Origin: Tepidimonas thermarum
GTDB lineage: Bacteria; Pseudomonadota; Gammaproteobacteria; Burkholderiales; Burkholderiaceae_C
DNA length: 58,828 nt
Direction: 5' to 3'
Assembly: GCF_007556705.1 (NCBI RefSeq)
Contig: NZ_VJOL01000009.1
Location: forward strand, 1 to 58,828
A model generated the notes under the pieces. That model was not told the origin of the DNA and searched no databases. It saw nothing but the letters and a program-made list of their open reading frames with translations. Of this stretch, positions 1-42,699 are shown piece by piece. The first letter of the stretch is position 1, and each line of letters begins with the position of its first letter. The position numbers and the translations under genes were made by a program.

Positions 1-71
1 TTTCCGCAATGCTCGCCGAACTCGACGACGAGTGGCTGACCGGCAAGGTCTATCTCAACTTCAACCTGTAA
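1..71 (+). CDS. C-terminal end of a probable IS256-family transposase (partial)
   Basis: The first 71 bases encode an open C-terminus, with residues LDDEWLTGKVY close to the end and a TAA stop at 69-71. A D/E-E-W-x-T-G-x-x-Y pattern close to the C-terminus is what I recall from IS256/Mutator transposases. The identification leans equally on the terminal-repeat-like sequence that follows. With only about 22 residues visible, another transposase family cannot be excluded. The gene enters from outside the window and reads toward legB. Confidence 0.45.
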   Translation, partial: SAMLAELDDEWLTGKVYLNFNL

Positions 72-127
72 CCCGGTTGTCATGACCACCCAACCGGAAA
101 TTTACAGAAAAGAGGTTGCACAATCCG
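1..127 (+). mobile_element. Right end of an IS256-type (Mutator) insertion sequence
   Basis: Positions 99-126 (TTTACAGAAAAG followed by GTTGCAC) resemble the terminal inverted repeat I know from IS256-family elements. This stretch lies just after the stop codon of a short coding tail that looks like an IS256 transposase end. The rest of the element is outside the window, so the left repeat and the target duplication cannot be checked. The likely outer boundary is about 17 bases before the first possible legB start. Confidence 0.5.
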
Positions 128-145
128 GCGACGATGCGCTAGGAT
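116..145 (+). promoter_or_regulatory. Possible hybrid promoter at the IS/legB junction
   Basis: TTGCAC at 116-121 sits inside the IS terminal repeat and TAGGAT at 140-145 lies outside it, with an 18-base spacer. IS256-type elements are known to create hybrid promoters this way. The matches are weak (3/6 and 4/6). If used, transcription would begin near 152, which would favour ATG 186 over ATG 144 as the legB start. This is inference only. Confidence 0.22.
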
Positions 146-1199
146 GATACGCAACGCCTCAACCCCCATTGTCCCAATCAGCCCGATGGAAATACCCCAA
201 ACCACCGCTTCGTCCGCTGCGCCACGGTGTCTTGTGACCGGGGCCGACGGCTTCATCGGTTCGCACTTGGTTGAAATGCTCGTGGCGCGCGGTTTTCGTG
301 TCCGGGCTTTGGCGCAGTACAACAGCTTCAACCACTGGGGCTGGTTAGAGGGTTTGCCCTGTCTGCCCGAGATCGACGTGCTCACCGGCGACATCCGCGA
401 TCCGCATTTTTGCCGCCGCATGGTCGAAGGGGTGGATATCGTGTTCCATCTTGCGGCGCTGATCGCCATCCCGTACTCCTACGCCGCCCCGGACAGCTAT
501 GTGGACACCAACGTGCGTGGCACGCTCAACATGTGTCAGGCTGCCCATGCCGCTGGGGTGAAGCGCTTCATCCACACCTCCACCAGCGAGGTGTACGGCA
601 CCGCGCGCTATGTGCCCATCGATGAGGCGCATCCACTGCAGCCCCAGTCGCCTTACAGTGCCTCGAAAATTGGCGCGGACGCCATTGCCATGAGTTTTTT
701 CAGCAGCTTTGGTTTGCCGGTGACGGTGGCGCGTCCATTCAATACCTACGGGCCTCGCCAGTCCGCGCGTGCGGTCATTCCCACGATCATCAGCCAGATC
801 GCCGCGGGCAGACGTCGCATCGAACTGGGCGACCTGCGGCCGACGCGGGACTTCAATTACGTCGAAGATACCTGTCGCGGCATGATTGCGCTGGCGGAGT
901 GCCCCGGCGCCGTTGGGGAGGTGGTCAACATCGGTTCGAATACCGAAATTTCCATTGGCGAGACGGTGCATCTGATCCGCGAGCTCATGGGTAGCGATAT
1001 TGAGATCGCGCAGGACGAACGCCGCTTGCGACCCAGCCAATCGGAGGTTTATCGTCTGTGGTGCGACAACCGAAAAATCGTACGGTTGACGGGCTTTACA
1101 CCCCGGGTTTCCTTGCGCGAAGGGCTGATACGGACCATTGCCTGGTTTCGTGACGAGAACAACCTGCGCCGCTATAAAGTCGAGCTCTACAATGTCTGA
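144..1199 (+). CDS. legB: NAD-dependent 4,6-dehydratase LegB (legionaminic acid pathway)
   Basis: Short-chain dehydrogenase/reductase of the extended epimerase/dehydratase type, 351 aa. The Rossmann loop GADGFIG is at residues 33-39. The serine/threonine region TSTSEVYG is near 145-152 and the catalytic YSASK at 171-175. The NSFNHWGW stretch after the second strand is characteristic of LegB, which makes the 4-keto-6-deoxy intermediate from a nucleotide-activated GlcNAc. It is the first gene of a seven-gene operon and its last 8 bases overlap legC. The start is uncertain: ATG 144 has no Shine-Dalgarno at a useful distance, and in-frame ATG 186 (residue 15) would remove an unconserved Ser/Thr/Pro-rich leader but also lacks a good ribosome site. 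The substrate (GDP- or UDP-sugar) cannot be read from sequence. Confidence 0.9.
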   Translation: MIRNASTPIVPISPMEIPQTTASSAAPRCLVTGADGFIGSHLVEMLVARGFRVRALAQYNSFNHWGWLEGLPCLPEIDVLTGDIRDPHFCRRMVEGVDIVFHLAALIAIPYSYAAPDSYVDTNVRGTLNMCQAAHAAGVKRFIHTSTSEVYGTARYVPIDEAHPLQPQSPYSASKIGADAIAMSFFSSFGLPVTVARPFNTYGPRQSARAVIPTIISQIAAGRRRIELGDLRPTRDFNYVEDTCRGMIALAECPGAVGEVVNIGSNTEISIGETVHLIRELMGSDIEIAQDERRLRPSQSEVYRLWCDNRKIVRLTGFTPRVSLREGLIRTIAWFRDENNLRRYKVELYNV

Positions 1200-2352
1200 C
1201 GTGGGCGCTTTCATCCGTTTTGTGCGGGAGCTGTACGGGCAGCGCGAAGGCGCCATTGCGCTGCATGCCCCGACGATGGGCCAACGGGAGAAGGCGTGGG
1301 TCAATCAAGCGATTGACTCCACTTTCGTGTCCAGCGTGGGCGCGTTCGTGACGGAGTTTGAGCAGCGCATCGCCGCCTTCGTGGGTGCGCGGCATGCAGT
1401 CGCCACGGTCAATGGCACGGCGGCGTTGCATGTGGCGCTGCGCGTGGCAGGCGTGCAACCGGGCGACCTCGTGCTGACCCAGGCGCTGACGTTCGTGGCC
1501 ACCTGTAACGCCATCACGTATTGCGGCGCCGAGCCGGTTTTCGTCGATGTGGAGGCCCCAACCCTGGGCATGGACCCGGAGGCGCTCGCGGCCTGGCTTG
1601 CCGACCATGCGGTGCTCGCAGCCGGTCAATGCGTCGAGCGCCAAAGCGGTCGTGTGATCCGCGCCTGTGTGCCGATGCACACCCTCGGCCATCCCGCGCG
1701 GGTCGATGCCATTGCGCAATTGTGTGGCCGCTGGGGACTGGCGTTGATCGAAGACGCTGCCGAGGCACTGGGCAGCTACCGCGCCGGTCGCCACGTCGGG
1801 ACTTTTGGGCGGCTTGGGGCTTTCAGTTTCAATGGCAATAAGGTCATCACGACCGGTGGCGGTGGCGCCGTCGTGACAGACGATGAAGCGCTGGCGCGCT
1901 GGGCACGGCATCTGACCACCACCGCCAAGCGCGTGCATCCGTGGCTGTTCGATCACGACGAGGTCGGCTACAACTACCGCATGCCCAATCTGAACGCAGC
2001 CTTCGGCATCGCGCAATGGGAGCGCTTACCCGCTTTGCTGTCCAGCAAACGTCAGGTGGCGGACGCGTACCGCCAATGGGCGGATCGGCACGGCTGGTGC
2101 TTTGTGCAAGAGCCGTCTGACACTCGCAGCAACTACTGGCTCAATGCTTTTTGTCTGCCGGATCTGCAAGCACGGGACGCGTTTTTGCAGGCAACCAACG
2201 CTGCGGGTGTCATGACACGGCCGCTGTGGACGCCCATGCATCGTTTGCCGATTTACCAACGCTGTCGTCGTGGCGACCTGCCGGTGACGGAAAAGCTTTC
2301 CGATACCGTGGTCAATGTGCCGAGCTCGGCGCTGACCCAAGGGGATGAATGA
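1192..2352 (+). CDS. legC: PLP-dependent aminotransferase LegC
   Basis: DegT/DnrJ/EryC1/StrS-family sugar aminotransferase, 386 aa. It is expected to transfer an amino group to C4 of the 4-keto sugar made by LegB. The PLP-binding lysine should be K217 in FSFNGNKVITTGGGG, and the preceding ALIEDAAEALGS holds the aspartate that contacts the pyridine nitrogen. The overall pattern, including the N-terminal ALHAP segment and the FVSSVG loop, is that of the LegC subfamily rather than PseC. ATG 1192 overlaps the legB stop by 8 bases, which indicates translational coupling. Its own stop overlaps the region of the legG start. Confidence 0.9.
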   Translation: MSDVGAFIRFVRELYGQREGAIALHAPTMGQREKAWVNQAIDSTFVSSVGAFVTEFEQRIAAFVGARHAVATVNGTAALHVALRVAGVQPGDLVLTQALTFVATCNAITYCGAEPVFVDVEAPTLGMDPEALAAWLADHAVLAAGQCVERQSGRVIRACVPMHTLGHPARVDAIAQLCGRWGLALIEDAAEALGSYRAGRHVGTFGRLGAFSFNGNKVITTGGGGAVVTDDEALARWARHLTTTAKRVHPWLFDHDEVGYNYRMPNLNAAFGIAQWERLPALLSSKRQVADAYRQWADRHGWCFVQEPSDTRSNYWLNAFCLPDLQARDAFLQATNAAGVMTRPLWTPMHRLPIYQRCRRGDLPVTEKLSDTVVNVPSSALTQGDE

Positions 2353-2353
2353 C

Positions 2354-3517
2354 ATGACCGTCCGGCGCGTTGCAGTCGTGACGGGCACCCGAGCGGACTA
2401 CGGTTTGCTCTATTGGATCATTCATGATCTTTATCAGGCCTCGGATTTTGAGCTTCAGCTCGTCGTCACCGGGATGCATTTGATGCCGCGATTTGGCCAT
2501 ACGATCGACGGTATTCGGCGTGACGGTTTTCCCATTGCTGCCACTGTGGATCTTGCGATGGTTGACGATAGTCCGCGTGTGGTCGCTCGCGCCATCGGGT
2601 TGGGCACTGCGGGTTTCGCCGACGTTTTTGCGGATCTGCACCCCGACGTCGTGCTGATTCTGGGGGATCGTTTCGAGGCGCTGGCGGCCGCCACCGCGGC
2701 ATTCGCGCAGCGGGTGCCGATTGGCCATATTCATGGCGGCGAAGTCACCGAAGGTACGCTCGACGACGGCTTTCGGCACGCCATTACCAAGTTGTCGGCC
2801 TTGCACTTTACGGCTGCCGAACCCTATCGGCGCCGCGTGATCCAGATGGGGGAGATGCCCGAGCGTGTTTTCAATGTCGGGGCGCCAGGGCTGGAGCATT
2901 TTTTCCGCACGCCGCTGCTGTCCAAGCCGGAGCTCGAGCGGGAGCTGGGCTGCCCGTTGGACGGCGTCGTCTTTCTCGTTACGTTTCATCCCGCGACGCT
3001 CGATCCTGGCAGCCCCGCACAACAGTGCCAGGAACTGCTGGCCGCGCTCGATGCTTTTCCGCAGGCGCGCATCGTCTTTACCCTGCCCAACGCGGATCCT
3101 GGCGGACAGGCGATCATTCCCCTCCTCGAGGACTACGTTCGTCGCCATCCTGGGCGTTGCCGCCTGTATGCATCGCTGGGCCAGCAGCGCTACCTCTCGT
3201 TGCTGCGCCTGGTGGCGGCCGTGGTAGGCAACTCATCCAGTGGGGTGATCGAGGCACCCAGCGCAGGCTGCGCCACGGTCAACATTGGCGACCGGCAGCG
3301 CGGCCGCTTACGCGCAGCCAGCGTGATCGACTGTGCGCCACAGAGGCGCGACATCGAAGCCGCGCTTCGGCGCGTGCTGGACCCGGTGTTTCGGGCGACG
3401 CTTGCAGCGGTGCACAATCCCTACGGCTCGGGCGATGTCGCCGCTCGCATTCTGGCGGTCTTGCGCACGGTCGATCCACCGGGGTTGTTGCGGAAGCCGT
3501 TTTTTGACCTGGGGTGA
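2354..3517 (+). CDS. legG: UDP-GlcNAc 2-epimerase (hydrolysing), LegG/NeuC type
   Basis: Hydrolysing 2-epimerase that releases the nucleotide and gives the 2-epimerised free sugar (2,4-diacetamido-2,4,6-trideoxymannose in the Leg pathway). The NeuC/LegG signature elements are present: GTRADYG at the N-terminus, GDRFEALAAA, HIHGGEVTEG and GNSSSGVIEAPS. About 387 aa, normal for the family. Two starts are possible: ATG 2345, which overlaps the legC stop by 8 bases, and in-frame ATG 2354. AAGGGG at 2339-2344 is correctly spaced only for 2354, so I chose that one. The gene lies between legC and legI, as the order of reactions predicts. Confidence 0.88.
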   Translation: MTVRRVAVVTGTRADYGLLYWIIHDLYQASDFELQLVVTGMHLMPRFGHTIDGIRRDGFPIAATVDLAMVDDSPRVVARAIGLGTAGFADVFADLHPDVVLILGDRFEALAAATAAFAQRVPIGHIHGGEVTEGTLDDGFRHAITKLSALHFTAAEPYRRRVIQMGEMPERVFNVGAPGLEHFFRTPLLSKPELERELGCPLDGVVFLVTFHPATLDPGSPAQQCQELLAALDAFPQARIVFTLPNADPGGQAIIPLLEDYVRRHPGRCRLYASLGQQRYLSLLRLVAAVVGNSSSGVIEAPSAGCATVNIGDRQRGRLRAASVIDCAPQRRDIEAALRRVLDPVFRATLAAVHNPYGSGDVAARILAVLRTVDPPGLLRKPFFDLG

Positions 3518-3523
3518 CGGAGC

Positions 3524-4621
3524 ATGCACGACGATCGTTGTCCAGCGCATGTGCAGGTGATTGCCGAGGCCGGTGTCAACCACAATGGCCAACCGGAGTT
3601 GGCCTTCCAGCTGGTTGAGGCCGCAGCACAGGCCGGGGCCGATGTCATCAAATTCCAGACCTTTCAAGCCGAGCGCCTGGTGACTGCCACGGCACCCAAA
3701 GCTGCGTACCAACAACGCACGACGCGTGGGGACGAGTCACAGCTCGACATGCTGCGACGTCTGGAGCTCCCGCGGCAACTGCACCATGCGCTCAAATCCG
3801 ACGCCGAGCGACGCGGGCTGCGCTTTTTGTCCACCGCGTTCGATGAGGAAAGTCTGCGCTTGTTGGTGGATGAGTTGGGGTTGTCGCTGCTCAAAATCCC
3901 CTCGGGCGAGCTGACCAACGCCCCCTTTCTGCTGCAGCACGCGCGCACGGCCGCGCAGCTGATCGTGTCGACGGGGATGGCCAGCCTGGGTGACATCGAA
4001 CTGGCGCTTGGTGTCATCGCGTTTGGGTGCATCGCTGGCCCGCGCGAGCGGCCGGGCGTGTCCGCCTTCCGCGCCGCATACGCCTCCCGCGAGGGACGGC
4101 TGGCCCTGGCGCAGCGCGTCACCTTGTTGCACTGCGCCAGCGCGTATCCCGCGCCACCGGAAGCGGTCAACCTGCGCGCGATGGAGGCGATGGCCTGTGC
4201 ATTCCATCTGCCCGTTGGCTACTCGGATCACACGCTGGGGATCGAGGTGGCGCTCGCCGCGGTGGCGCGCGGGGCCAGCGTGATCGAAAAGCATCTCACC
4301 ATGGATCGACGGCTGCCGGGGCCGGATCATGCAGCCTCGCTCGAGCCCGACGCGTTTCGGGCGATGACACAGGGCATTCGCCTAGTGACCCTGGCGCTTG
4401 GGGACGGCATCAAGCGGCCGCAGCCACAGGAACTCGATACGGCGGCGGTGGCGCGCAAGAGTTTGGTGGCCAAAGCGCCCATTCAGCGTGGCGAACCCTT
4501 TTCTGCACAAAACGTGGCCATCATGCGGCCGGGGACGGGCATGTCACCGGTTCGGTACTGGGAGTTGCTGGATCGGGTTGCGTCCCGGGACTACGCTGCG
4601 GGTGAACTGTTGGATGAGTGA
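3524..4621 (+). CDS. legI: N,N'-diacetyllegionaminate synthase LegI (NeuB family)
   Basis: Condenses the 6-deoxy-mannosamine derivative with phosphoenolpyruvate to form the nonulosonic acid. 365 aa. The N-terminal TIM-barrel motifs of NeuB are visible: [38 protein letters not shown] and the metal/substrate segment EKHLTMDR with PGPDH. The last 60 residues form the SAF (antifreeze-like) domain typical of sialic acid synthases, starting around [10 protein letters not shown]. It starts six bases after legG and ends overlapping legH (ATGAGTGA). Pseudaminic or N-acetylneuraminic acid synthase activity is the alternative, but the neighbouring legB/legC pair points to legionaminic acid. Confidence 0.9.
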
Positions 4622-5261
4622 ACGCATCGTCATCGTTGGCGCGGGGGGGCACGCCCGTGTGGTCCTGGACGTGCTGCGCCTGTTGGGCTGGGACGTCGCC
4701 GGGGTGCTAACCCCCGACCCACCAACGGGCTGCGTATGGGAGGGGGTGTCCGTGCTTGGCGATGACGCCTGGTTGGGCGAGCCGGGCGCAACGGGCTATG
4801 CGTACGCGATCGGCATCGGCGCGGTCCCAGGCAAGATGATGGCGCGGCGTGCGATGCACATGCGGCTTAGGCAACTCGGCGTTTGCATGCCCGCATTGAT
4901 GCATCCCGCGGCGGTCGTGGCACGAACGGCCGCGGTGGCGTCAGCGGCGCAGATCATGGCTGGTGCCGTGGTACAGCCGGGTGTTCGCATTGGGGTCAAC
5001 GCGTTGGTCAACACGGGTGCCAGGATCGACCATGATTGCACCATCGGTGCCCATGCCCATGTGGCCACGGCGGCCGTGCTGTGTGGGTCGGTTTTCGTGG
5101 GGGAGGGGGCTTTCATCGGCGCGGGTGCGGTCGTGCTGCCGGGTGTGCGCGTGGGGGAGGGGGCGGAAGTCGCCGCAGGCGCCACCGTCACACGCGACAT
5201 CCCTCCGTGGCATCGGTATATTCCGGGGCGTCCCCTCAGAATGCTGGAGGTGCAGGCGTGA
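4614..5261 (+). CDS. legH: Sugar N-acetyltransferase, LegH / NeuD / PglD type
   Basis: 215 aa. The N-terminus [15 protein letters not shown] is the small Rossmann-like domain of the NeuD/PglD group. It is followed from about residue 95 by a left-handed beta-helix of hexapeptide repeats and the C-terminal segment typical of acetyl-CoA-dependent acyltransferases (ending in an IPGRPLRML-like stretch). In the Leg pathway this enzyme would acetylate the C4 amine introduced by LegC. ATG 4614 overlaps the legI stop by 8 bases. O-acetylation of the finished sugar (true NeuD activity) is the alternative role. Confidence 0.85.
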
Positions 5262-6319
5262 TCACGGACTGGCAAGGGCTTTTGCTGCGACCGGACGACT
5301 CCATCCGGCGCGCGATCGAGGTCATCGACCGTGGCGCCAAGCGCATCGCGCTGGTGGTCGATGACAGCGGCCGTCTGCTTGGCACCGTCACGGATGGCGA
5401 CATCAGACGAGGTCTGTTGCGCCACTTGGGCCTGGACGCCGCGGTCGTCGAGGTGATGAACCCGCAGCCGCGCGTCCTGCCGCAACATTACCGGCGCGAA
5501 GATGCGCTGCGTCTGCTTGGCAGCGCACAGGTGTTGCAGGTGCCCATTGTGGACGAGGCCGGTGCGCTGGTGGGTCTGGAGACCCTGACCGATCTGCTCA
5601 AGCGCCCGCGACTGGAGAATCCTGTGTTCCTCATGGCCGGCGGCTTGGGCACGCGGCTGCGTCCTTTGACGGACCACTGCCCCAAGCCCATGCTTCCCGT
5701 AGGCGGCAAGCCGATGCTGGAACACATCCTGCAGGACCTGATCGATTACGGCTTCTATCGCTTCTACATCTCGGTGCACTACCTGCGCGAACAGGTCATC
5801 CAGCACTTCCAGGATGGCAGCCGCTGGGGGGTTTCGATCCAATACGTGCACGAAGATCAGCCACTGGGCACCGCCGGTGCGCTGGGCCTGTTGCCCAAGG
5901 ACGCCGTGCAGCGTCCGGTCATCGTGGTCAACGGCGATATCATGACGCGCGTCAACTACGAAGCTTTGTTGCAAGACCACGACCGCCACACGCCCGCCGC
6001 GACCGTGTGCACACGCCAATACGACTTTCAAGTGCCCTACGGGGTCATCGAGCACGACGAGCAGCGCATCACCAACATCGTCGAAAAACCGGTGCACCAC
6101 TTTTTCGTCAGCGCCGGCATCTATGTGCTGGCACCGCAAGTGGTGCATCACATGACGCCGCAGACCCGCATCGACATGCCCGATTTGCTCAAGCGGCAAA
6201 TCGATGCGGGGCGCGAGGTGCGCATGTTCCCCGTGCACGAGTATTGGCTCGATATTGGGCGCATGAGTGATTTCGAGCTGGCCCAGCGTGACGTCCGCCA
6301 GGTGATCGACCGTGGTTGA
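5258..6319 (+). CDS. ptmE: Nucleotidyltransferase with N-terminal CBS pair, PtmE type
   Basis: 353 aa in two parts. Residues 1 to about 120 hold two CBS motifs ([12 protein letters not shown] closes the first; [20 protein letters not shown] the second). From about 125 a sugar-phosphate nucleotidyltransferase follows, with the signature [19 protein letters not shown] and the metal-binding VNGDIM. In Campylobacter PtmE is the GlcN-1-phosphate guanylyltransferase that starts legionaminate synthesis with a GDP-sugar. By analogy this gene should supply the activated substrate of LegB. The start is GTG 5258, with GGAGG at 5246-5250, and it overlaps the legH stop as GTGA. The CBS pair suggests control by an adenine nucleotide; this is inference. 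Confidence 0.85.
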
Positions 6320-7019
6320 CGGCAAGGGGCGGGTGGTCGCACTCATACCGGCGCGCGGCGGCAGCAAAGGCGTGCCGGGCAAAAACCTGCGGGACTTGGG
6401 CGGCAAACCCCTGGTGGCGTGGACGATCGAGGCCGCTCGCCAAGCCGAGTGCATTGACGAGGTGGTGGTGTCCTCGGACGATAACGCCATCCTGAAGGTG
6501 GCCCGTCAGTGGGGTGCGGCGGTGCCGTTTGTGCGGCCCGCGGCATTGGCACGTGACGATACGCCGGGCATCGACGTGGTGCTGCACGCGTTGGAGCAGC
6601 TGCCCCACGCGCACTGGGTGGTGCTGCTGCAGCCCACATCGCCCTTGCGGACAGCGCAGGACATCGAAGCGGCGGTGGCCCGCTGTTGGGAGGCGCGTGC
6701 GCCGGCCTGTGTCAGCGTCAGCGAGGTCGATACCCCGCCCGGGTGGATGTTTCGGCTCTCCGACGATGGACGGCTGCGCGCCATCCTGCCGGAACGCGAG
6801 CGCCCGCTGCGGCGCCAGGACGCGCCGACGCTGTATGCACTCAACGGAGCGGTGTACGTCGCACGCGCCGATTGGCTGCGCCACGCGCGCACCTTTTTGA
6901 CCGACGAGACGGTTGCGTACCGGATGCCGCCGGAGCGATCCATCGACATCGACACGCCGCTGGACCTGATGATTGCGGCGTGCCTGATACGCGAGCGGCA
7001 ACGCGGCGGCGGCGTTTGA
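6312..7019 (+). CDS. legF: CMP-legionaminic acid synthetase (LegF / NeuA family)
   Basis: Cytidylyltransferase that activates the finished nonulosonic acid with CTP, 235 aa. The N-terminal IPARGGSKGVPGKNL loop binds CTP; LLQPTSPLR and the C-terminal RSIDIDTPLDL metal-binding stretch are diagnostic for the CMP-sialate synthetase family. It starts with GTG 6312, overlapping the ptmE stop by 8 bases, and is the last gene of the operon. It is convergent with the flagellin gene that ends at 7044. Specificity for legionaminate rather than N-acetylneuraminate or pseudaminate is inferred from the operon. Confidence 0.9.
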   Translation: MVDGKGRVVALIPARGGSKGVPGKNLRDLGGKPLVAWTIEAARQAECIDEVVVSSDDNAILKVARQWGAAVPFVRPAALARDDTPGIDVVLHALEQLPHAHWVVLLQPTSPLRTAQDIEAAVARCWEARAPACVSVSEVDTPPGWMFRLSDDGRLRAILPERERPLRRQDAPTLYALNGAVYVARADWLRHARTFLTDETVAYRMPPERSIDIDTPLDLMIAACLIRERQRGGGV

Positions 7020-7043: not shown

Positions 7044-7886
7044 TCACCCTTGCAGCAGCCGCAACACGTTCTGCGGCAGCTGGTTGGCCTGGGCGATCAT
7101 GGCGGTGCCGGCCTGCTGCAGGATCTGCGTGCGGCTGAGGTTGGCGGTCTCGGCCGCGAAGTCGGCGTCCATGATGCGGCCGCGGGCGGCCTGCTGCTTC
7201 TCGATGCCCACGCGCAAGTTGGTCATGATGTTTTCGAAGCGGCTCATGTAGGCCCCCATCTCCGCGCGGCGCGCCACGATGCCCTGGATGGCCGTATCCA
7301 GGGTTCCCAGGATAGACGCAATATTAGACGGTATAGCGCTCGCGGAGATGGAGAAGCCACTAGCCATCGCAGAACCAACGCCAGAAAGTCCAGCCAGCGA
7401 GTTCAGTGTAAAGCTGATCGTCTGCCCCCCTTGCGCGCCGATTTGAAACACAAAGCTACCCGCCTGGGAGCCCAATATCTGTCGGCCGTTGAAGTTCGTT
7501 TGTTCGCCAATGCGCCGGAGTTCCTGCGAGAGCTGACGAAACTCCTGGTTGATGTTGATGCGCTCTGCGCCACCGTTGGTGCCGTTGCCGGCGCGCAGGG
7601 CCAGATCGCGCATGCGCTGCAGCACGTCGGTGACCGTGGACAGGGCGCCGTCGATGACCTCCACCATGGAGAGCGCATCGGCCGTGTTTTGCAGCGCGAC
7701 GGTCATGCCGCGTGCCTGGCTGTTCATGCGCTCGGCAATGCCCAAGCCCGCTGCGTCGTCTTTGGCGGTGTTGACCCGCAGCCCCGACGACAGGCGTGCC
7801 ATCGTGGTCTGCAGCGACTGCATGTTGTTGATGGTGTTGCGCTGGGCATTCAGCGACATCACGTTGGTGTTGATGGTCAGGGCCAT
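7044..7886 (-). CDS. fliC: Flagellin, copy 1
   Basis: Flagellar filament subunit, 280 aa. The conserved N-terminal D0/D1 half starts with INTN followed by SLNAQRN, LSSGLRVNTAKDDAAGL and AERMNSQARG. The conserved C-terminal half has MSRFENIMTNLRVGIEKQ, RIMDADFAAETANLSR and a NQLPQNVL ending. The central segment (about residues 140-200) is very short, so the protein lacks D2/D3 outer domains. That segment is rich in Ser, for example SAMASGFSISASAI. Export would be by the flagellar type III system; there is no signal peptide. The ATG at 7886 is preceded by an AGGAGCG ribosome site. The gene ends 24 bases from legF and follows fliD after a terminator, so it needs its own promoter. Only a -10-like TCCGATCA (complement of 7967-7974) without a matching -35 was seen. 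Confidence 0.95.
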   Translation of the reverse strand: MALTINTNVMSLNAQRNTINNMQSLQTTMARLSSGLRVNTAKDDAAGLGIAERMNSQARGMTVALQNTADALSMVEVIDGALSTVTDVLQRMRDLALRAGNGTNGGAERININQEFRQLSQELRRIGEQTNFNGRQILGSQAGSFVFQIGAQGGQTISFTLNSLAGLSGVGSAMASGFSISASAIPSNIASILGTLDTAIQGIVARRAEMGAYMSRFENIMTNLRVGIEKQQAARGRIMDADFAAETANLSRTQILQQAGTAMIAQANQLPQNVLRLLQG

Positions 7887-8035: not shown

Positions 8036-9445
8036 TCAGCTCTTACGTGTGTTCCAGCTCGCCAGCTGCTGGTTGATGAAGTTGCTCAGGCCGCTGTAGC
8101 CGGCCATTTTGGTGTCCAGCATGGTGTATTGGGCGCGCAAGGCGGCCTCGGTGCGCTGCACGCGCTCGTTGATGCGGTCGATCTCGGCGTTCTTGCGCTT
8201 GATCGTCTCTTGCAGACCACGCTCACGGCTGCTGGCGGCCCCACTTGCGGCCAACGCATCCTGCGCAAAGCTCTTGAGCCGTTGCGCGATGCCGCTGCCA
8301 CCCAGCAGCCCGGCCAACCCGTTGGGGTTGTTCAATGCGGTGGCGAGCTGGCTGCTGTCCAGGGTGAGCAGACCCTCGCGGTCAAAGCGGATGCCCGCCT
8401 CGTTGAGCGTGGCGGGGGTATTGCCGCTGACGGTGTCCCCTGCGATGCGGCGCAGCATGGTCAAAATGCCGATGGCCGCCGAGTCCCCGCGCAGGGGGCC
8501 GTTGCCCCCGCCGGTGGGGTCGCTGCGTGTCAGGTCCTTGATCGTGCGGCTTAGCTCGTTGAAAGCGTCACGAAATGCCTCCACCGCCTTTTGCATGCCC
8601 TCGCGGTCATCTTCCACGGTCAAGGTCACAGGCTGGGCGGTTACAGCTTTGGCGGTGAAGGTCACGCCCGCCAGCGTGTCAGAAAAGGTGTTGCTTGCCG
8701 ACGAAACGGCGATGCCTTCCACGGTGATCTGGGCGTCGGTGGCGGGCTGCACCAAGGTCTGACCGTCTGCGAAACCGCCGGCATCGTAGTAGGCCAAACG
8801 TCCCAGCCCGGTGCTGGTGTCGGTGATCAGGGTATCGGTGGCGTCGAAGGCGACCAATTCGAAGCCGTTGGCTTGCCCCGTGTCGGCGCCGCGCACCACC
8901 AGCTGTTCGGTGCTGCCGCTGCGCACCACTGCGGCGCGCACACCCGCGTTGGCGCTGTTGATCTTGCTGGCGATCGTCGCTAGCGTGTCGGTGGCCGATA
9001 CGCTGATGCTGACCGGGGATCCCGACCCCGCAACAAACCCCGTTGGCCCCCACTGTCCCAGTCGGATTTCGAGTCGGCCCGCTTGGCCCACTGTCTCGCC
9101 CGTGTTGAACGCTTGCGTGCGTGTGCTTTGCGCCTGCGCCAGCGCCAAGACTTCCACCTGGTACTGCCCCGTGACCGCGCCGGTTTGCGCGGTCACAGCA
9201 ACACTCTCGGGGGCGCTGGAGCGCGCGACCTGTGCCTGCCAGGTGGCGCTGGCGGCCAGTTTGGCCGCGGCGTCCTGCAGTTTGGCCAGCCCGCCCTTGA
9301 TCTGCCCCCACGCCGATACCGACGACTGAAGCGACCCGATTTGCGACTGGATGTTGGCAATCGGCTTGCGTTCCAGCGCGACCAGCTGGGAGACGATGCT
9401 GTTGACATCAAGGCCGCTGCCGACCCCGGGGGAGGAAATGGCCAT
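8036..9445 (-). CDS. fliD: Flagellar filament cap protein FliD (hook-associated protein 2)
   Basis: Filament cap, 469 aa, exported by the flagellar type III system to the filament tip where it helps flagellin fold and assemble. The N-terminus GVGSGLDVNSIVSQLVALE is the family signature. The C-terminal coiled coil (about residues 415-455, with the KRKNAEIDRINERVQRTEAALR heptads) and the final M-x-x-x-S-x-L-x-x-FINQQL segment are conserved. It lies between two flagellin genes on the same strand. The ATG at 9445 has AGGAGC six bases upstream. A terminator follows directly, so it is transcribed separately from flagellin copy 1. The chaperone genes fliS and fliT, common neighbours, are not in the window. 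Confidence 0.95.
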   Translation of the reverse strand: MAISSPGVGSGLDVNSIVSQLVALERKPIANIQSQIGSLQSSVSAWGQIKGGLAKLQDAAAKLAASATWQAQVARSSAPESVAVTAQTGAVTGQYQVEVLALAQAQSTRTQAFNTGETVGQAGRLEIRLGQWGPTGFVAGSGSPVSISVSATDTLATIASKINSANAGVRAAVVRSGSTEQLVVRGADTGQANGFELVAFDATDTLITDTSTGLGRLAYYDAGGFADGQTLVQPATDAQITVEGIAVSSASNTFSDTLAGVTFTAKAVTAQPVTLTVEDDREGMQKAVEAFRDAFNELSRTIKDLTRSDPTGGGNGPLRGDSAAIGILTMLRRIAGDTVSGNTPATLNEAGIRFDREGLLTLDSSQLATALNNPNGLAGLLGGSGIAQRLKSFAQDALAASGAASSRERGLQETIKRKNAEIDRINERVQRTEAALRAQYTMLDTKMAGYSGLSNFINQQLASWNTRKS

Positions 9446-9593: not shown

Positions 9594-10430
9594 TTACCGC
9601 AACAGTGCCAGCACGTTTTGTGGCAGCTGGTTGGCCTGGGCGATCATGGCGGTGCCGGCCTGCTGCAGGATCTGCGTGCGGCTGAGGTTGGCGGTCTCGG
9701 CCGCGAAGTCGGCATCCATGATGCGGCCGCGGGCGGTGGTCTGTTTTTCGATGCCCACGCGCAGGTTGGTCATGATGTTTTCGAAGCGGCTCATGTAAGC
9801 CCCCAACTCAGCGCGGCGGCCGACGATCGATTGGATAGCAGTGTCGAGTGCGCCCAAAATGGCGCTGATGCTGGCGGCGGAGGCAGTGCTTGAGATCGAC
9901 AAGTTATTCACGATAGAGTTCACACCAGAGGCAGTGCCCAGACTGGCAAACGTGATTGACAAAGTTTGTCCGCCCTGCGCGCCGATTTGGAATACGTACG
10001 AATTGGCACTCGCGCCGAGGATCGCCCGACCGTTGAAATTGGTTTGGTCGCGAATCCGTCCCAACTCAGAGGCGAGCTGACGAAACTCCCGGTTGATGTT
10101 GACACGTTCTTTCGTACCGTTGGTGCCGTTGCCCGCGCGCAGCGCTAAGTCGCGCATGCGCTGCAGCACGTCGGTGACCGTGGACAGGGCGCCGTCGACG
10201 ACCTCCACCATGGACAGCGCATCGGCCGTGTTTTGCAGCGCGACGGTCATGCCGCGCGCTTGGCTGTTCATGCGTTCGGCAATGCCCAAGCCCGCCGCGT
10301 CGTCTTTGGCCGTGTTGATGCGCAGCCCCGACGACAGGCGTGCCATCGTGGTCTGCAGCGACTGCATGTTGTTGACGGTGTTGCGCTGCGCGTTCAAAGA
10401 AATCGGATTGGTATTGATGGACAGGCTCAT
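9594..10430 (-). CDS. fliC: Flagellin, copy 2
   Basis: Second filament subunit, 278 aa, nearly identical to copy 1 over the first ~110 and the last ~75 residues. The two differ in the middle (about residues 112-200). The central part is again short and Ser-rich (SIVNNLSISSTASAASIS) and its DNA is visibly richer in A/T than the ends. The conserved D0/D1 blocks are the same as in copy 1 and the protein ends NQLPQNVLALLR. The ATG at 10430 has an AGGAGCG site. A sigma-28-like promoter lies about 95 bases upstream. It is transcribed toward fliD, with a hairpin in between. Confidence 0.95.
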   Translation of the reverse strand: MSLSINTNPISLNAQRNTVNNMQSLQTTMARLSSGLRINTAKDDAAGLGIAERMNSQARGMTVALQNTADALSMVEVVDGALSTVTDVLQRMRDLALRAGNGTNGTKERVNINREFRQLASELGRIRDQTNFNGRAILGASANSYVFQIGAQGGQTLSITFASLGTASGVNSIVNNLSISSTASAASISAILGALDTAIQSIVGRRAELGAYMSRFENIMTNLRVGIEKQTTARGRIMDADFAAETANLSRTQILQQAGTAMIAQANQLPQNVLALLR

Positions 10431-38156: not shown

Positions 38157-39563
38157 ATGGTTGATTCCCCCGCGCGCCTGCGCCCGCCGCCCGCCCACGC
38201 GTTCAAGGCCTACGACATCCGCGGCACCGTCCCCGACACCATCGATCCCGGCTTTGCCCATGCGCTGGGTCGCGCCTTTGGCGCGCGTGCGCGCGCGTTG
38301 GGCGAACCCACCGTCGCCGTCGGCCGTGACGGTCGCCTCAGCAGCCCGGCGCTGGCCCAGGCGCTCATCGAGGGGCTGGCCGACAGCGGGGTGGACGTGC
38401 TCGACCTCGGCATGGTCACCACGCCGATGCTGTACTTTGCCGCAGCCACCCACTGTCGCAGTGGCATCCAGGTCACGGGCAGCCACAACCCGAAGCACCA
38501 CAATGGCTTCAAGATGGTGCTGGCGGGTCGCGCCATCTACGGCGACGACATCCAGGCCTTGCGCGCCGCCATGGCCGCCGATGCCGCGCCCGCAACCACG
38601 CGCGGCCGCGTGCGACGCCTGGACATCCTGCCCGAATACATGGCCCGCATCACCGGGGATGTGCGGCTGGCGCGCCCGCTCAAGCTCGTCATCGACTGCG
38701 GCAACGGCGTCACCGGGGCGTCGGCGCCCGCGCTGTTTCGCGCCCTCGGGTGCGAGGTCACGGTGCTCTACGGCGAGGTGGACGGCGAGTTCCCTCACCA
38801 CCATCCCGACCCGTCCAAGCCGGAAAACCTGCGCGACCTGATGGCGGCGCTGCAGCGCACCGGTGCCGACCTCGGTTTTGCCTTCGACGGCGATGGCGAC
38901 CGCCTAGGTGTGGTCACGCCCAGTGGCCAGAACATCTTTCCCGACCGCCAAATGATGCTGTTTGCCGCCGACGTGCTCGCGCGCGTGCCGGGCGGCACCA
39001 TCGTGTACGACGTCAAATGCAGCCAGCGCCTGGCACCGGCCATCCGCGCCGCGGGTGGTGTGCCGCTGATGCACCGCACCGGACACTCGCTGATCAAGGC
39101 CAAAATGCGCGAGGTCGGCGCGCCGCTGGGTGGCGAAATGAGCGGGCACATCTTCTTTCAGGAGCGCTGGTACGGCTTTGACGACGGCAGCTACGCCGGC
39201 GCGCGCCTGCTGGAGATCCTGAGCCGCTATGACAACCCCGGCGCGGTGCTGGATGGGCTGCCGACCAGCCACGCCACGCCCGAACTCAACGTTGCATGCG
39301 CCGAGGGCGAACCGCACCGCCTGGTGGCCGAGCTGCAACGGCAGGCACGCTTCGATCCCCCGGCTGACGTCAGCACGGTCGACGGTCTGCGCGTGGATTG
39401 GCCGGACGGCTTCGGGCTGATACGCGCCTCCAACACCACGCCGGTGCTGGTGCTGCGGTTCGAAGGCCAGACGCCCGAGGCGCTGGCACGCATCGAAGCC
39501 CAAATGCTGGGCTGGCTGCGCCGCGTCAAGCCGGATGCGGTGGTGGGCGACGCCGCCCATTGA
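38157..39563 (+). CDS. Phosphomannomutase/phosphoglucomutase (AlgC type)
   Basis: Alpha-D-phosphohexomutase, 468 aa. FKAYDIRGTVPD at the N-terminus, the phosphoserine loop TGSHNPKHHNGFK, the metal loop FAFDGDGDRLGVV, sugar-binding GGEMSGHIFF and the C-terminal phosphate-binding RASNTTPVLVLRFEG are all in place. It would supply mannose-1-phosphate or glucose-1-phosphate for the surface polysaccharide genes that follow. TACAAT at 38114-38119 is a likely -10. The ATG 38157 is the first start at the conserved N-terminus; longer frames upstream run through the EamA gene. Confidence 0.93.
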   Translation: MVDSPARLRPPPAHAFKAYDIRGTVPDTIDPGFAHALGRAFGARARALGEPTVAVGRDGRLSSPALAQALIEGLADSGVDVLDLGMVTTPMLYFAAATHCRSGIQVTGSHNPKHHNGFKMVLAGRAIYGDDIQALRAAMAADAAPATTRGRVRRLDILPEYMARITGDVRLARPLKLVIDCGNGVTGASAPALFRALGCEVTVLYGEVDGEFPHHHPDPSKPENLRDLMAALQRTGADLGFAFDGDGDRLGVVTPSGQNIFPDRQMMLFAADVLARVPGGTIVYDVKCSQRLAPAIRAAGGVPLMHRTGHSLIKAKMREVGAPLGGEMSGHIFFQERWYGFDDGSYAGARLLEILSRYDNPGAVLDGLPTSHATPELNVACAEGEPHRLVAELQRQARFDPPADVSTVDGLRVDWPDGFGLIRASNTTPVLVLRFEGQTPEALARIEAQMLGWLRRVKPDAVVGDAAH

Positions 39564-39594
39564 CCGGCGCGTATTGCGCACTCGGGACTGTGTC

Positions 39595-40680
39595 GTGACC
39601 GCCGCTGCCATCGCCCCCGACCCCGACCCGGAAGTGATCGTCTTCAACCTGAAGCGGCGCTACACCGGTGTGTCGGCCACCGTCAACGCCTTGGTCCCGA
39701 TCCAGGCGCGCCAGTGGCGGCTGGCCTACTGCGGCACCTCGCTGCCGCATGGCATGCCGGGCATGACGCTGCGGCAGGTCATCGCGCTGTCGCGCCGCCC
39801 GCCAGCGGGGCGGCCGTTTCGCATCTGGCACGTGCGGCGCGACCATGAGATGGCCGCGGGCCTGTGGGCGCGCGACGTGCTGCGGCTGCCGATTCGGCTC
39901 GTTTTTACGTCGGCGGCGCAACACCGGCATGGCTGGTTTCCGCGCTGGTTGATCAGCCGCATGGACGCGGTGATCGCCACCACCCCGAAAGCGGCCAGCT
40001 TCGTGCCCAACACCACGGCGGTGGTGCCGCATGGCATTGACCTGACGCGCTTTGTGCCACCGCCGGACAAGCTGATGGCGTGGCGCGACAGCGGTTTGCC
40101 GGGGCGCTACGGCATAGGTGTGTTCGGACGCGTGCGGCCCGACAAGGGCACGGACGTCTTTGTCGAGGCGATGATCGCCGCGCTGCCGCATCTGCCGGAG
40201 GTGACCGCCGTGATCGCCGGCCGGGCCATGCCGCAGCACGAGGCCTACCAACGCGAGCTGCAAGCGCGCATCGATGCCGCCGGACTGCACGAGCGGATCC
40301 GTTTTCTGGGCGAGGTGCCGGCGGCCGAGGTGCACCGCTGGTACCAGCGCTGCCTGGTCTGCGTCGCGTGCCCGCGCTACGAGCCCTTTGGCCTGACGCC
40401 GTTCGAGGCCGCGGCCGCAGGCTGTGCGCTGGTGTGTTCACGCACGGGCGCGTTTGAGGCGCTGGTGCAGCCTGGCGTCAACGGGGAGCTGGTCGACACC
40501 GGGGACGCCGCGGGGCTGGCCCAGGCCGTCCGCCGCGTGCTGACCGACCCGTTGGCGGCGCAACGCATGGGCCAAGCGGCCCGTGCGCGCGTGGCAGAGC
40601 ATTTTTCGCTGGAGCGCGAGGCGGCAGGAATTGGGGCAGTCTACGAGCGCTTGTGGGCGGCGTCCCCGTCTGGCACATGA
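39595..40680 (+). CDS. Family 4 glycosyltransferase, LpsB-like (lipopolysaccharide core)
   Basis: 361 aa, GT-B fold. The N-terminal VIVFNLKRRYTGVSATVNALVPIQ is like LpsB-type core mannosyltransferases. The C-terminal nucleotide-sugar half has GVFGRVRPDKGTDVF and the EPFGLTPFEAAAAGCALV E-x7-E motif. The likely acceptor is the lipopolysaccharide core, since waaA is close by. The start is uncertain: GTG 39595 fits related proteins, while ATG 39535 would overlap the preceding gene by 29 bases. The 3' end overlaps the next gene, on the other strand, by 40 bases. Confidence 0.83.
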   Translation: MTAAAIAPDPDPEVIVFNLKRRYTGVSATVNALVPIQARQWRLAYCGTSLPHGMPGMTLRQVIALSRRPPAGRPFRIWHVRRDHEMAAGLWARDVLRLPIRLVFTSAAQHRHGWFPRWLISRMDAVIATTPKAASFVPNTTAVVPHGIDLTRFVPPPDKLMAWRDSGLPGRYGIGVFGRVRPDKGTDVFVEAMIAALPHLPEVTAVIAGRAMPQHEAYQRELQARIDAAGLHERIRFLGEVPAAEVHRWYQRCLVCVACPRYEPFGLTPFEAAAAGCALVCSRTGAFEALVQPGVNGELVDTGDAAGLAQAVRRVLTDPLAAQRMGQAARARVAEHFSLEREAAGIGAVYERLWAASPSGT

Positions 40681-41501: not shown

Positions 41502-41589
41502 GGGATGATCGAAACGGGCTCCGGCAACGACCCGAGCCGGGAGTGTACCCATGTCGCGCGGCGATGCCGTGGTGTGTGAGGGCGCCAGC

Positions 41590-42699
41590 ATGAACGGGCA
41601 TGGGCAGCAACCGTTGCGTGTGCTCATGGTGGTGCACAGCCGTCAACTGGGCGGGGCGGAACGCCACGCCCTGGCGTTGTTGCTGGCGCTGCGCCGGCGC
41701 GGTTGCGACGTGTCCCTGGCGGCCCCCGCGCAAGGGTGGCTGGCGCAGGCAGCTGGCGCAGCGGGTATCCGCTGCCACGCCGTTGGCCTGCATGGCAAAT
41801 TCGATGCGTTGTCGGCGTGGCGCCTGTCGCGCCTCATGCGCGCGCAGCGGCCTGATGTGGTGCATGCGCACCTGACGCGCTCGACCCACTACGCAGACTG
41901 GGGCCGACGGTGGTCGGGGCTGGCTTGTGTCCTGGTGGCCACGGCCCATGCCACCCACGCGCAGCGGCATTTTGAGCGCGCCGATCGGGTGATCGCGGTG
42001 TCGGCAGCGGTCGCGGGCGCGCTGCGGGCACGCGGCCTGGGGCCCGAGCGCATCGACACCGTGTTGCATGGCATGGCCGATCCTGGGGAGGGACCGGATG
42101 GTGCTGCCGCACCCACGGCACCGGGCGCCGCGGTGCGGCTGGGCATGCTGGCACGCTTCATCCCGGACAAGGGGCATGACACCGCCCTGCGCGTGCTGGC
42201 CGAGGTCCGCGCACGCACCGCGACCCCTGTTCAACTGCACCTGGCGGGTGATGCGCAAACACCCTGGGGGCAGCAGATGAAGCAACTGGCGCACCGGCTG
42301 GGGGTGGAGGATGCGCTGGTTTGGCACGGTCAGACCGACCGGCCCATGGAATTTCTGCGTTCCCTGGACGTGGTGCTGGTGCCGTCACGGCGTGAAGCGC
42401 TGGGACTGACGGCGGTGGAGGCGCTCGCGGTCGGGCGTCCGGTGTTGGCCTCGAATCTGGGGGGCTTGCCGGAAGTGGTGACCGATGGCGAGGTGGGCCG
42501 CCTGTTGCCGGTGGATGATGTGTCAGCCTGGGCGCAGGCCTTGTTGTCGTTGATCGACGACCCGCAGCGCCGTTTGGCTTGGGGGAGGGCGGCGCGCACG
42601 CGATTCAAGCGCCAGTTCGACCTCGAGCGCATGGTCGAACAAACCCTGGCGGTGTACCGCCGCGCGCAACGTGCCCGGGGCGTCGACGGGAGGACATAA
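41590..42699 (+). CDS. Family 4 glycosyltransferase
   Basis: 369 aa, GT-B fold. N-terminal MVVHSRQLGGAERHALALLLAL with the GGAE acceptor loop; C-terminal LARFIPDKGHD and SRREALGLTAVEALAVGRPVLASNLGGLPE (E-x7-E motif). Probably adds a sugar to the core or O-chain. ATG 41590 has GAGGG upstream; in-frame 41551 is an alternative. It is followed after 3 bases by the deacetylase gene, so these two and waaA form an operon. Confidence 0.85.
   Translation: MNGHGQQPLRVLMVVHSRQLGGAERHALALLLALRRRGCDVSLAAPAQGWLAQAAGAAGIRCHAVGLHGKFDALSAWRLSRLMRAQRPDVVHAHLTRSTHYADWGRRWSGLACVLVATAHATHAQRHFERADRVIAVSAAVAGALRARGLGPERIDTVLHGMADPGEGPDGAAAPTAPGAAVRLGMLARFIPDKGHDTALRVLAEVRARTATPVQLHLAGDAQTPWGQQMKQLAHRLGVEDALVWHGQTDRPMEFLRSLDVVLVPSRREALGLTAVEALAVGRPVLASNLGGLPEVVTDGEVGRLLPVDDVSAWAQALLSLIDDPQRRLAWGRAARTRFKRQFDLERMVEQTLAVYRRAQRARGVDGRT

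Follow-up and report, generated by a model that had tools for sequence, protein, structure and literature searches.

A legionaminic acid operon facing two flagellin genes in Tepidimonas thermarum, and its predicted role in flagellin glycosylation by a TPR-bearing Maf transferase

The 58,828-nucleotide stretch analysed here (the window: contig NZ_VJOL01000009.1 of assembly GCF_007556705.1, positions 1–58,828) comes from Tepidimonas thermarum, a member of a genus that NCBI places in Burkholderiales and whose genomes are treated in PMC7386788. It carries a complete seven-gene legionaminic acid (Leg) operon, legB-legC-legG-legI-legH-ptmE-legF, at 186–7019 on the forward strand, with all frames intact. 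The first two genes encode an NAD-dependent 4,6-dehydratase (legB, 186–1199, frame open from 144) and a pyridoxal phosphate-dependent aminotransferase (legC, 1192–2352), and both products exceed the cut-offs of curated, Leg-type NCBIfam models (TIGR04180, 509.2 bits against 475; TIGR04181, 520.8 against 420). A hydrolysing 2-epimerase (legG, 2345–3517; TIGR03568, 452.2 bits against 235.9), a Leg synthase (legI, 3524–4621; TIGR03569, 453.1 against 399.65) and a NeuD/PglD-type acetyltransferase (legH, 4614–5261; TIGR03570, 190.9 against 160.8) pass NeuC-, NeuB- and NeuD-type cut-offs respectively, model names that do not separate Leg from neuraminate (Neu) enzymes. The last two genes, both with GTG starts, are ptmE (5258–6319), which joins a CBS pair (PF00571) to a nucleotidyltransferase domain (PF00483), and legF (6312–7019), a cytidylyltransferase (PF02348) assigned as cytidine monophosphate (CMP)-Leg synthetase.

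The six junctions are tight throughout, ranging from −8 to +6 bases: stop and start overlap by 8 bases at legB/legC, legC/legG, legI/legH and ptmE/legF and by 4 bases at legH/ptmE, and legG and legI are separated by 6 bases. An earlier note on this DNA had listed the same genes in the same order, all of which we find intact and matching their families; it had counted five tight junctions of six, and while the tightness holds, the count should be six. It had also reported no ptmA, ptmF or glmU homologue. This is correct for the operon, the remainder of the genome not having been searched for ptmA or ptmF, but the genome does encode a housekeeping GlmU (contig C39, 574.6 bits). A single nonulosonic acid (NulO) synthase is present in the whole genome. 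PtmE, at 85–88% identity within the genus and 86% at a locus (L135) from a gammaproteobacterial metagenome-assembled genome (MAG), is better conserved than most of its operon neighbours.

As the earlier note had stated, the operon faces two flagellin genes. Flagellin 1 (280 amino acids, 7044–7886) and flagellin 2 (278 amino acids, 9594–10430), each matching PF00669 and PF00700, are 82% identical and flank the filament cap gene fliD (8036–9445; PF02465 and PF07195). All three are on the reverse strand, convergent with the operon, and the ends of legF and the flagellin 1 gene are 24 bases apart. By alignment, flagellin 1 has no insert of the size of the D2/D3 domains.

The DNA immediately upstream of legB has a different character. 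Positions 1–125 (forward strand) correspond to the right end of a multi-copy insertion-type element, including the tail of an open reading frame that stops at 69–71. Positions 1–120 match 31 times in the 2.70 Mb, 129-contig genome; the eight copies fetched all lie at contig ends, and the copies diverge past base 125. Similarly, the last 141 bases of another contig, C63, match 32 times, and all eight loci fetched are one-flanked, that is, at contig ends. We read the end of C63 and positions 1–125 of the window as the two ends of one repeated element at which the assembly broke, and on this evidence these 125 bases are an element end rather than native upstream DNA. The element, whose ends read AGTTGTGTATC... 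and ...GTTGCACAATC, explains a large share of the breaks between the 129 contigs.

The element stops 14 bases short of a promoter-like TAGGAT (140–145, forward strand) and 60 bases short of the legB start. In alignments read by eye, legB is preceded by TAGNAT in five of the six genomes compared (our own and four of the five relatives) and TACGAT in the sixth; the context CGATG(G/A)A around ATG186 (184–190) is matched in four of the five relatives. Because ATG144, where the earlier note had begun the operon, overlaps the TAGNAT element, and because the context of ATG186 matches that in the relatives, legB probably starts at 186. A TTGCAC at 116–121 belongs to the mobile element and stands 18 bases from the native TAGGAT (by eye); a hybrid promoter for legB may thus have arisen through the insertion.

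Contig C63 supplies what the window does not. The earlier note had seen no Maf-type glycosyltransferase in the window, which is true of the window, and had proposed a whole-genome search; that search found a single PF01973 protein in the genome, encoded on C63, so the view that no Maf exists is rejected. Its open frame is full and starts about 80 bases in from the end of the contig, and beyond it C63 encodes FliS, FliF, FliG, FliH, a flagellar-type ATPase and FliJ, all confirmed by Pfam. It is very probable that the window and C63 adjoin in the genome, because element ends lie on both, maf and legB are neighbours in relatives and C63 carries the same flagellar series. The protein has a PF01973 core (121.4 bits, cut-off 34.6) and a tetratricopeptide repeat (TPR) domain at its C-terminus. 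The PF20157 Maf N-terminal domain gave no match at E 0.1 in this Maf or in the Maf of locus L027, and is present in the Maf of L125. The predicted transferase thus departs from the canonical Maf and resembles, in its described architecture, the published TPR-bearing Maf-1 type.

We then asked how the genes are distributed within Tepidimonas. LegB exceeds its cut-off in 6 of 11 genus genomes, and Maf is found in the same six, one copy in each. Two of the five Leg-negative genomes are only 73% and 88% complete. In all five other Leg-positive genomes, maf and legB lie next to each other in divergent orientation, with 37 to about 120 bases between their coding matches, within a conserved maf-leg-flagellin locus; in the source strain this arrangement would extend across the contig break. 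FliS follows maf in three of these five relatives, and fliF and fliG in two. Two Leg-negative genomes have, at the same locus, a conserved open reading frame, a long flagellin, fliD, a second long flagellin, fliS and fliF, and neither leg nor maf is matched anywhere in between. In a third (G001) the flagellin matches end at contig ends, and the remaining two gave weak matches only. A Tepidimonas-type locus is also found in L130 (DYIC01000007.1), a MAG titled Hydrogenophaga sp., a title that may be a misnomer.

Phylogeny bears on the identity of the sugar. In a LegI tree of 43 rows, the LegI of the window falls in the Leg clade (support 98/98) and groups with those of the genus and L135 (100/98); this group is sister to two LegI proteins from other genomes of the order (97/89), and synthases linked to pseudaminic acid (Pse) genes form a separate group (99/95). 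The placement of L135 inside the genus clade has support of 86/7. Eight rows (L104, L106, L109, L121, L122, L147 and L151 among them) were named pseI by best match only, and very long branches occur among these. In a LegF tree of 32 rows, the LegF of the window groups with legF products of Leg loci and apart from the PseF clade (99); this tree and the Maf tree are quick searches with many long branches. Grouping of LegI and LegF with pseudaminate enzymes, an outcome the earlier note had raised, was therefore not found. Since LegB and LegC also pass their cut-offs and LegF, at 167.4 bits, is below the PseF cut-off of 205.7, we reject a pseudaminate pathway. The LegI and LegF trees contained no true neuraminate synthase, and the comparison with neuraminate enzymes consists of PDB scores: LegI matches SpsE at 176.9, NeuB at 146.2 and a Pse synthase at 142 bits, and the best match of LegF is a CMP-N-acetylneuraminic acid synthetase, with none of 13 matches named LegF. 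The Bacillus subtilis sps genes are reported as a Leg pathway in PMC7439481. Given LegB and LegC, an N-acetylneuraminic acid route is unlikely.

Instead of Leg5Ac7Ac itself, the sugar could be a stereoisomer or derivative; 4-epi-Leg, 8-epi-Leg and N-acyl variants are examples. Stereochemistry cannot be read from sequence families, and LegH is the most variable protein of the operon within the genus (57–68% identity). LegB and LegC, however, both score above cut-offs for Leg-type enzymes, and the seven abutting genes leave no space between legB and legF for an additional epimerase gene. We regard this alternative as unlikely, though the most probable of those considered.

Outside the genus the picture is more varied. 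Across 399 sampled genomes of the order, LegB was found in 27 (E up to 1e-120) and PF01973 in 13, six of them over the cut-off, and the source genome alone had both: none of the 398 others carries the pair. All 26 other LegB loci were fetched (stretches of 5–20 kb), and none contains a match at 1e-8 to maf, flagellin, fliD or fliS. Seven other PF01973 stretches were fetched from the order; of the three examined with Pse queries, two carry Pse genes. The 26 loci are what would be expected if CMP-Leg served a surface polysaccharide, a lipopolysaccharide O-antigen or a capsule, and lay near flagellins by chance, and the window does encode two GT4-type glycosyltransferases (39535–40677 and 41551–42696), far from the leg operon. 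Against this, the 6 of 11 Tepidimonas genomes that have LegB are also the ones that have Maf, the two genes adjoin each other near flagellins in all five outside the source strain, and similar Maf–Leg linkage recurs outside the order. A polysaccharide role is therefore very improbable. The earlier note had called the arrangement unusual for Burkholderiales; this stands in the sample of the order, with the qualification that about half the genus shares the trait and that similar arrangements are met again outside the order. Our literature searches found nothing linking Tepidimonas with legionaminic acid and nothing joining legionaminic acid, flagellin and Burkholderiales; among the matches listed, no title on Tepidimonas flagella concerned flagellin glycosylation.

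We consider it very likely that CMP-Leg is made here and that the TPR-Maf then O-glycosylates both flagellins. This is the best explanation because there is one synthase, one Maf, a housekeeping GlmU and a conserved locus, and the same evidence, GlmU apart and with the 6 of 11 co-occurrence added, strongly supports the flagellin-glycosylation reading of the earlier note. The window would then hold one half of a glycosylation module. PtmE and the housekeeping GlmU, with GlmS and GlmM presumed, would provide a nucleotide-linked N-acetylglucosamine (GlcNAc), probably GDP-GlcNAc as in Campylobacter, which LegB, LegC and LegH would convert to a 2,4-diacetamido-trideoxy sugar. LegG would release and epimerize this sugar, LegI would condense it with phosphoenolpyruvate to give Leg, and LegF would produce CMP-Leg. 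The TPR domain of Maf, whose gene is divergent from legB and here apparently parted from it by the mobile element, would bind newly made flagellin, and the transferase would add Leg to serine or threonine residues in a short central segment before export. Expression of the genes is presumed, and motility may require the modification.

Several observations weigh against this proposal. In the source strain, maf and legB lie on separate contigs, and no perfect target-site duplication is seen at the element between them (6 of 9 bases alike, by eye). The element splits their intergenic region, ends the contig and may disturb expression of maf or leg. In L024 and L025 the sequence beyond maf runs 1.6 and 0.8 kb to the contig end and contains no fliS match, and our confidence is slightly lowered because fliS linkage is seen in only three of five relatives. 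Among 18 TPR-Maf loci in a class-wide sample, eight adjoin Leg genes, three Pse genes and seven neither within the stretch, and we reject the idea that TPR-Maf proteins are dedicated to Leg. Serine and threonine make up 0.25–0.30 of the flagellin centre in Leg-positive genomes, against 0.12–0.14, but the centres of the long flagellins of Leg-negative genomes are enriched too (0.22–0.25 against 0.14–0.16), and this enrichment was rejected as weak evidence.

The position of the element also raises the possibility that the module is silent or decaying in the source strain, since the insertion lies between divergent maf and legB, close to the TAGGAT and the legB start, in a genome where its ends match 31 and 32 times. 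Yet the seven leg genes and maf are all full open frames, the TAGGAT box is intact and the element end itself offers TTGCAC at the 18-base spacing. We think a silent module improbable.

Glycosylation of this kind has precedents. In Campylobacter jejuni and C. coli, as described in PMC9298399, the steps from LegB onwards lead from GDP-GlcNAc to CMP-Leg, Leg is found on flagellin, and a Maf-type transferase (Maf4) is implicated. The route from LegB to CMP-Leg would be common to both organisms; in Tepidimonas, unlike Campylobacter, the seven genes form one operon adjoining the flagellins, with no ptmA or ptmF in it. The published account divides Maf4 into N-terminal, central and C-terminal domains. 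Plesiomonas shigelloides, according to PMC4481668, carries a Leg derivative on both its flagella by mass spectrometry, and biosynthesis mutants have no flagella. Its Leg genes are likewise in a flagellar setting, between flagellar regions; the island has in addition GlmU-like, PtmA and PtmF genes, and its maf-5, reported to be without classical Maf domains, adjoins the lateral flagellin. The TPR-bearing Maf-1 (Unay, Kint and Viollier, 2024, as cited in PMC13317340) has, like the Tepidimonas protein, a C-terminal TPR domain, which is said to set flagellin acceptor and site specificity. In Caulobacter FlmG a TPR is also joined to a transferase placing a NulO on flagellin, but there the TPR is N-terminal, the catalytic domain is GT-B-like rather than Maf and the sugar is pseudaminic acid (PMC7591256). 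Finally, the Clostridium flagellar hypervariable region, as presented in PMC13317340, has NulO genes that vary between related strains and species within the flagellar locus; this recalls the Tepidimonas locus, in a different phylum and with different flanking genes.

Flagellin length differs with Leg status. Complete flagellins have 272–285 amino acids in Leg-positive genus genomes (one copy is truncated at the end of a contig) and about 485–503 in Leg-negative ones, and those recognized at TPR-Maf loci outside the genus all have 227–292. A short-type flagellin, defined by a best match to the window flagellin at E up to 1e-49, is found in 17 of 20 TPR-Maf genomes against 39 of 172 other flagellin-bearing genomes (Fisher p 6e-8, relatedness ignored); very short flagellins escape this rule, also in the background. 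In the three exceptions the flagellins are shorter still (227–234 amino acids), and proteins of this length adjoin the TPR-Maf genes of L143, L146 and L153. Two TPR-Maf copies elsewhere may be broken: the match at L152 spans two frames, and that at L155 has two in-frame TGA codons in its C-terminal part. Many short flagellins occur without TPR-Maf. We tentatively suggest, as a possibility rather than an expectation, that TPR-Maf and short flagellins lacking D2/D3 form one co-evolving unit in which a NulO coat replaces the outer protein domains, with gain or loss of the leg-maf block switching Tepidimonas, as a locus, between glycosylated short and bare long flagellins. No title tying short flagellins to NulO glycosylation appeared among the literature matches listed.

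With regard to origin, the leg genes of L135 are 61–86% identical to those of the window, and its FliD is only 32% identical, below the 36–42% of Leg-negative genus genomes. Because of this difference, and because LegI is sister to LegI of the order, maf and leg seem to have moved separately from flagellin and fliD; transfer of the whole cassette, flagellins included, from another proteobacterium was considered, and the same two observations speak otherwise.

The locus illustrates that the key gene of a pathway can be concealed when an assembly breaks at a repeated element. If the proposal is right, Leg-bearing flagella would extend to a genus of Burkholderiales, a familiar type of system in a branch where it was not expected. 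The setting would be minimal, with one sugar route, one transferase and two similar flagellins, and the existence of natural plus and minus species at the same locus would make the genus well suited to asking what purpose flagellin glycosylation serves and whether the sugar takes the place of outer flagellin domains.
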